64,000 nt of DNA from Botryococcus braunii (Eukaryota; Chlorophyta; Trebouxiophyceae): NCBI GenBank assembly GCA_002005505.1, contig KV908534.1, positions 107,934-171,933 of the forward strand, in the 5' to 3' direction. The position numbers and the translations under genes were made by a program. Positions 3,634 through 3,876 of this stretch are shown here, piece after piece (the stretch's first letter is position 1; every line of letters starts with the position of its first letter). Under the pieces are notes generated by a model that did not search any database, was not told where the DNA came from, and saw only the letters and a list, made by a program, of their open reading frames with translations.

Positions 3634-3876
3634 ATGGCGAAGAAGCGGACAAAGCAAACAGCCAGGAAGACCACCAACCTCAACGTTCCAGCGCGCTTGA
3701 GATCAGGACCTCCGTCATACAACGAACTAATCAGAGAAGGAGGACAACGTGGAGACCGCAATCCTGACGAGAGAGCCTTTATCGTCAAAGACTACATCTT
3801 TCACCTTCACGTTGGCTGTCCGTTAGCTCAACCCACCTGGTTCAGAAGTAAGATCTTGCTGCTACCTTGCGAGTAA
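3634..3876 (+). CDS. Copia-2 leader ORF1: histone H3 tail-like N-terminus (80 aa, C-terminally shortened)
   Basis: This ORF lies between the primer site and gag and ends 26 bp before the gag ATG. It begins [22 protein letters not shown] is identical to H3 residues 2-9 (R2, K4, R8 and K9 included), followed by T-T where H3 has S-T. Residues 15-60 match the Copia-4 ORF1 closely (PARLR.GPPSYN.LIR.GGQRGDR.PDERA.IVKDY.FHL). From about residue 70 the sequence diverges and stops, so about 90 residues present in Copia-4 are missing. The start has T at -3 and G at +4, while gag has A at -3, so leaky scanning could serve both. No known domain was recognised beyond the tail; the function is unknown. It is not a histone gene, because the histone fold is absent. 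Confidence 0.7.
   Translation: [80 protein letters not shown]

Follow-up and report, generated by a model that had tools for sequence, protein, structure and literature searches.

Background

Histone mimicry is found in proteins other than histones, and influenza NS1 is a histone mimic. The H3K9-like motifs in G9a/GLP substrates are likewise short H3-like motifs in non-histone proteins (PMC10611923, in excerpt). In fission yeast, H3K9M dominantly blocks H3K9 methylation; it traps Clr4 with SAM, and residues 3-12 of the peptide are ordered in the G9a groove (PMC5030085, in excerpt). EZHIP, a non-histone protein, inhibits PRC2 via a K27M-like motif (PMC12713659, in excerpt).

A 64,000-nucleotide stretch of Botryococcus braunii DNA, hereafter the window, carries a Copia retrotransposon with an additional open reading frame (ORF), termed the leader, that lies ahead of gag and begins with a copy of the H3 tail. 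One branch of the leader family, clade C, resembles the H3K9M histone tail in having Met at H3 position 9 of an H3 N-terminal sequence in which R8 is kept (PMC5030085, in excerpt). Unlike the H3K9M histone, however, the leader is borne by a transposon and has no histone fold, clade C mostly has Arg at K4 and Gly at A7, and inhibition by the leader is only proposed. Met9 leaders also share with EZHIP/CATACOMB an H3-like motif, in a non-histone protein, with Met in place of the methylated Lys, whereas EZHIP mimics H3K27, is a host gene of placental mammals and has its motif near the C terminus; this comparison is one of descriptions only (PMC12713659, in excerpt). The leader differs from the G9a/GLP-type histone mimics in that its match is longer, stands at or near the protein start, resides in a retrotransposon and is kept across distant families.

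To our knowledge, few transposon-encoded anti-silencing proteins have been described. VANDALs are DNA transposons, and Ogre elements of the Gypsy type have an extra ORF1. We know of no H3 motif in Ogre ORF1 or in ORF0 of rice Retrosat2, which belong to other elements and are likened to the leader by arrangement only. Like the leader, Retrosat2 ORF0 is encoded by an LTR retrotransposon in addition to gag-pol (PMC3485330, in excerpt). VANC of Arabidopsis VANDAL is a transposon accessory protein that counters host silencing, the role proposed here for the leader; unlike the leader, it causes sequence-specific loss of DNA methylation and its abstract names no H3 tail, so that the two are likened by proposed role only (PMC5735166). 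The word histone does not occur in the main text of a review on gene capture by plant transposons (PMC13317346), and no report of a transposon-encoded histone mimic or H3 tail was found among the matches listed in searches of the open-access literature, which is mostly without subscription papers.

A Copia element with a leader ORF

The host element occupies positions 2870-10019 of the window, on the forward strand. It is bounded by the target site duplication ACAAG (2870-2874), read directly and repeated as five identical bases 3' of the 3' LTR (10015-10019). The 5' LTR (2875-3565, 691 bp) has TG...CA ends and is abutted by a putative primer-binding site (PBS), GGTTATGGGCCCA (3566-3578), which has four matches in the window and none in 100 shuffles. 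It is probably similar to the anticodon arm of initiator tRNA-Met; a search of the window with ARAGORN detected no tRNA gene. The gag-pol ORF (3903-9305, 1,800 aa) has the Copia order of gag, zinc knuckle, integrase and then reverse transcriptase (RT). Pfam recognized gag_pre-integrs and SH3_retrovirus above the cut-off in 5403-7001, where rve (28.5 bits) narrowly missed its cut-off of 32.6, and RVT_2 in 7002-9302 at E 7.8e-67. A probable polypurine tract, purine-rich with one C on direct reading (9309-9323), precedes the 3' LTR (9324-10014). With its TG...CA LTRs, target site duplication, PBS, polypurine tract and an integrase placed 5' of an RVT_2-type RT, the element is a Ty1/Copia LTR retrotransposon. 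Because its LTRs are near-identical (one mismatch over the 685 bp compared), the insertion is recent. LTR elements are the main retrotransposons of B. braunii race B, in a report whose excerpt does not contain the word Copia (PMC11286282).

The element is nested in another Copia, which is marked by long repeats at 1-659 and 13302-13947. Within each of its own LTRs is a 143-bp duplication with copies 321 bp apart (3078-3220 and 3399-3541; 9527-9669 and 9848-9990), all four of which are identical. At the end of the 5' LTR, upstream of the leader, there is a 19-codon ORF (3535-3594, forward strand; ATG context GCCGCCACCATGC).

The leader ORF (3634-3876, forward strand, 80 aa) is situated between the PBS and gag and begins 68 nt past the PBS start. 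Its residues 5-12, RTKQTARK (3646-3669, read directly and found by pattern search), equal H3 residues 2-9 as in the host H3 genes L087, L088 and L094. A sequence-only reading of this DNA had described a copy of the H3 tail, with no histone fold after it, in an extra cistron ahead of gag of an intact element. Most of this description stands: the ORF is open, the window leader has no Pfam match above the cut-off, and it lies between the PBS and the gag-pol ORF. The word intact applies to the LTRs and gag-pol, but not to the leader. A misread histone gene is ruled out, as no fold is present and the host H3 genes stand separately.

Relative to the full-length leader of L071, which has 166 aa, the window copy lacks 283 bp (L071 1702-1984), and the junction of this deletion falls at 3846-3847. 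The window ORF is thus a deleted copy of a leader of ~165 aa whose H3-like tail is followed by a helical domain and an acidic end; the window ORF follows L071 to residue 71 and then has a shifted end. Subfamily L062 has a longer deletion that shares its right edge with the window copy and leaves a 65-aa ORF. The H3-like tail is retained in both deletion forms seen.

Among the best 150 of 753 candidates found with the truncated leader as query, the open frame has 90 aa in 139, 80 aa in nine, 81 aa in one and 99 aa in one. The 80-aa forms, the window's among them, end at a TAA, past which the next stop in the window frame, by reading of the sequence, is a TGA that overlaps the gag ATG. This overlap in the 90-aa form would suit re-initiation as a route to gag. 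Three bases before the ATG, the window family has T for the leader and A for gag. The commonest young copies keep the tail without the globular domain, which points either to a tail that is sufficient by itself or to full leaders acting in trans.

Members and architecture of the leader family

Leaders form a large, old family that is subject to purifying selection, and its many copies and families rule out an oddity of one copy. With the C-terminal part of the leader as query, the best 150 of 491 candidates were scored and ranged from 100% down to 43% identity; a distant member as query gave 800 candidates, of which again the best 150 were scored. Copy counts from such searches, with the best 150 places scored in each, are lower bounds. 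Protein databases contain 15 members, namely eight Botryococcus gene models, five JGI metagenome proteins and two from ENA contigs, and leaders match Botrbrau1 gene models at up to 96% identity. The truncated 90-aa leader found no homologue among candidates of up to 1.75 times its length, a range that does not reach the ~165-aa relatives. Viral and prokaryote contigs gave pattern matches, among which no leader relative was confirmed. In all 11 loci with enough upstream DNA (it is too short in four more), GGTTATGGGCCCA starts 58-68 nt 5' of the leader ATG; hence the leaders are homologous components of these elements.

AlphaFold2, supplied with 15 rows, gave a model of mean pLDDT 78.5, with a helical core at about residues 30-140, mostly at pLDDT 80-97, and a tail and an end of low confidence. 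Sequence comparison recognized no Pfam family or solved structure in the core, and 22 leader rows searched against Pfam gave no histone match (best E of any family 0.035).

Pooled dN/dS for the leader body is 0.16 in clade A (four sequences) and 0.15 in clade C (five sequences). Because the body is under such purifying selection, the leader is a used protein. Pooled pN for the tail is 0.116 (clade A) and 0.154 (clade C), versus 0.206 and 0.190 for the body, with synonymous sites saturated. Compared pair by pair, tail identity exceeds body identity in six of six clade A pairs and falls below it in five of 10 clade C pairs, over 10-14 codons with synonymous sites near saturation. The sequence-only reading had proposed that the first codons be compared with the rest for conservation. 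On the few codons at hand, the tail is at least as constrained as the body in clade A, but only about equally so in clade C.

These data bear on a rival view, in which only the globular part has a function and the tail is left over, without a role today, from the captured start of an H3 gene. In favour of this view, the commonest young copies have lost the globular part, so that portions of the leader can be dispensable in cis. However, replacement changes in the pooled tail are no more frequent than in the selected body, KQTARK is kept through synonymous changes, and it is the tail that both deletion forms keep. A relic is therefore very improbable.

Resemblance of the tail to histone H3

In the 176-Mb assembly, 297 places match a degenerate RTKQTARK pattern and none match the reversed pattern; a single guessed codon spelling of the tail had no match. 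Because the 297 matches are largely related by descent and include some H3 genes, comparison between families is the real test. The H3-like tail is kept in leaders that are 38-68% identical to L071, and also in the best 150 of the 753 places scored with the truncated leader. Thus, the tail that had been noticed in one copy belongs to the family, with P0008/P0009 as the exception. In clade A, eight loci encode KQTARK in five codon spellings: AAG-CAA-ACA-GCC-AGG-AAG, AAG-CAA-ACA-GCC-CGG-AAG, AAG-CAG-ACT-GCT-CGC-AAG, AAG-CAG-ACG-GCA-AGA-AAA and AAA-CAA-ACG-GCT-CGG-AAA.

Leaders 38-45% identical to L071 begin with MGRTKQSGRMATGGK (L097), MGRTRQTGRMST (L096) and MARKRQSGRMSTGGG (P0011); L102, also of clade C, begins with MARTRKTGRMSTG. 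Counted from that Met, the clade C starts are in exact H3 register, and L097 has T-G-G-K at positions 11-14 like H3. Another in-frame ATG lies eight codons upstream of the register Met in L096, L098 and L101. In the Lys9 clade, Met-Ala is followed by additional residues, and this clade falls outside the exact register. In P0015, the most distant member (30% identical), RKRQTARKSTSSK is found 16 residues inside the gene model. The metagenome members P0004 and P0005 read RQTARRSPRGG and RRQTARRNPR, that is, with Arg9, which is neither methylatable nor Met. P0008/P0009, also from metagenomes, have VRRSRTQTAQRRT, in which H3 likeness is mostly lost, to the level of shuffled sequences, and a basic tail is kept. 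L100 has a degenerate start with no Met, and L101 has Gln at R8 and keeps Met9.

Chance likeness is ruled out by shuffles, by scrambled H3 tails and by a profile search of PDB. When the first 30 residues of 16 representatives were compared with 5,000 shuffles, an H3 match as good was found in 0-1 shuffles for 13 of them; the other three are P0004 (five), L103 (10) and P0008 (621). The L097 tail has nine identities to H3 1-14, which none of 20,000 scrambled H3 tails equals. Across the nine tails in exact register, 0-17 of the 20,000 scrambled tails reached the score of the leader tail and 0-169 its number of identities, the highest count being that of L103 (169). A leader profile of 22 rows, compared with PDB sequences, met H3 or the H3 variant Cse4 in 59 of 60 among the matches listed (83 matched). 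These H3 matches align from residue 1-2 on and stop by about profile position 45. The best has an E value of 0.14 and none is significant alone, yet the agreement of individually weak matches is telling.

Retention by position was counted in 14 representatives: R8 is kept in 14, Q5 in 13 and T11 in 11, whereas K4 is Lys in only five. Because of this pattern at R8, Q5 and K4, the kept core of the tail surrounds position 9. The count leaves out P0008, P0009 and P0014 (tail unalignable), P0012 (model starts at Met9), P0013 (start missing), L099 (start unreadable), L100 (no start Met), L101 (Gln at R8), L104 (frameshift, tail as in L097), and the clade A loci L091 and L093, which are broken past the tail with KQTARK kept, as well as the near-copies L095, P0001, P0002, P0006 and P0010.

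The tail could alternatively be a basic segment for nuclear import or nucleic-acid binding that is H3-like by chance or through a similar basic constraint. Its shortness and basic character (MAKKR, MAKRRR) favour this reading, as do the tails of P0008/P0009, which are still basic but hardly H3-like, and the half of the clade C pairs that display no extra constraint on the tail. However, the likeness lies in residue order rather than composition, given that shuffles and scrambled H3 tails rarely match. The uncharged Q5 and T11 are conserved, as is Met9 in all of its clade, and L097 goes on with T-G-G-K as H3 does. A merely basic segment is thus improbable in our estimation. Apart from P0008/P0009 and single decayed copies, the leader tail has an H3-like motif that is conserved and beyond chance, and would classify as a histone mimic; on these comparisons, H3 mimicry by the tail is well supported.

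A clade with methionine at the H3K9 position

Met occupies the H3K9 position in every clade C start read (L096, L097, L098, L101, L102, L103, L104, P0006, P0007, P0010 and P0011), and the gene model of P0012, also of clade C, starts at the Met9 residue. A tree computed from the leaders minus their tails unites the Met9 rows in a single group (support 100/99), and 10 of the 10 tree rows in this group, P0012 included, have Met9. Because the tail-free tree unites them, the change to Met9 is old and has been kept. P0008/P0009 are sister to this clade (support 89/87). Most of its members have Gly at A7.

The genome has 217 matches to the pattern Met-[Ala/Gly]-Arg-Thr-[Lys/Arg/Gln]-Gln-x-x-Arg-Met, versus none for the control. 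The same pattern ending in Lys has four matches, three of which are verified host H3 genes, whereas the fourth (C224) is a pattern match only. Letters were read for seven of the 217 matches (100 places were listed), and four read MARTRQTGRM (C1, C2, C3 and C5), a subgroup that is placed with the Met9 leaders by its letters alone. Several matches coincide with leader starts, for example C2:429880, C3:862166 and C8:267357. Clade C has, to judge from its letters, what may be expected of a K-to-M inhibitor: Met at a methylated Lys in an H3-like context.

A possible role against silencing

Because Q5 and R8 are kept, position 9 is K, M or R, K4 is Lys in few representatives and the distance to the N terminus varies, the footprint of the tail would suit a K9 methyltransferase more than it would a reader of K4. 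From this footprint, we infer that the leader may be an anti-silencing mimic of H3. Specifically, it would most likely be a transposon-encoded H3-tail mimic that acts on host H3K9 methyltransferases, as a decoy (Lys9) or as a trap (Met9), a proposal to which we assign about an even chance. The leader, if translated, would comprise the disordered tail, a helical domain of ~100 residues and an acidic end, encoded before gag. The tail would dock in the substrate groove of host H3K9 methyltransferases of the SUVH/SET3p type. There, a Lys9 tail would serve as a decoy substrate, and a Met9 tail would act in the manner of H3K9M or EZHIP, as a trap that depends on SAM and cannot be methylated. Silencing of the element would thereby be weakened.

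SET3p of Chlamydomonas, which is SUVH-like, is an H3K9 mono-methyltransferase in vitro; when it is knocked down, tandem transgene arrays become active again (PMC8566409, in excerpt). A Pre-SET search for an H3K9 methyltransferase in the genome of the alga itself gave no match, but gave none in 14 control genomes either. Several observations speak against the proposal, namely Arg9 in P0004/P0005, the loss in P0008/P0009, Gly at A7, the starts of L100 and L101, the internal motif of P0015, the five clade C pairs in which the tail is the less identical part, and the scrambled H3 tails that equal the L103 tail by identities.

Tails of this kind could instead be genuine H3 mimics used for tethering or recruiting. 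They would bind readers (PHD, chromodomain, WD40) and bring the leader to chromatin, perhaps together with the pre-integration complex. This idea draws on the same motif data as the anti-silencing proposal. In addition, a Gypsy ORF in the window ends in a chromodomain (E 8.8e-17), a domain thought to tether Gypsy elements, and the conserved, predicted helical domain of the leader could act as a bridge. Readers of K4 or of the free N terminus need a fixed end and K4, however, whereas Lys is found at K4 in only five of 14 representatives, the Lys9 clade has extra residues before the motif, and Met9 could not be methylated for a chromodomain. Chromodomain-like tethering is thus possible, but it fits the conserved residues less well than does the binding or decoying of silencing factors, and we regard tethering as unlikely, though deserving of consideration.

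If the anti-silencing proposal is correct, its history may have been that a Copia lineage acquired the start of H3 as a weapon against silencing, after which one branch fixed an H3K9M trap and the other kept a Lys9 decoy. We put forward this scenario tentatively, as somewhat short of an even chance. It would mean that the lysine-to-methionine trick of cancer histones and EZHIP had been found independently, aimed at H3K9, and that roughly two hundred element copies within a single genome carry it. The natural series of K9, R9 and M9 tails is available for testing how elements escape H3K9 silencing.

A second leader and other elements in the window

A second leader-bearing Copia lies on the forward strand, with its putative PBS at 59065-59077. 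Its leader ORF (59131-59637) is full-length, with 168 aa, and is 68% identical to the L071 leader. KQTARK is written in other codons here (AAG CAG ACT GCT CGC AAG, 59152-59169). The ORF for gag and the start of pol (59680-61395) ends after 571 aa. Both leaders of the window carry Lys9, not Met9. This second full-length leader, the deletion in the first, and the K9-to-M clade in exact H3 register go beyond what the sequence-only reading had described.

In the enclosing Copia, a short ORF (709-858, forward strand; MASSDASVLGFPRTRLTARRSKKEQLDIHSEGLPTESSTSWEVFLSEVT) begins 49 nt past the PBS start. Likenesses to it were scored for the best 150 of 530 genome candidates, many in its second half only, and its RTRLTARRS is faintly H3-like by eye. 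A third Copia (31158-36761, forward strand) shares the PBS sequence and has a gag-pol ORF of 1,737 aa; between the two is a 27-aa ORF (31257-31340) that is not H3-like by eye. The Gypsy integrase ORF with the chromodomain noted above is at 62125-63738 on the reverse strand. Elsewhere, at G000 C565:65104-65376, a leader match resides within an open frame of 1,821 aa, which is possibly an in-frame fusion of leader, gag and pol.
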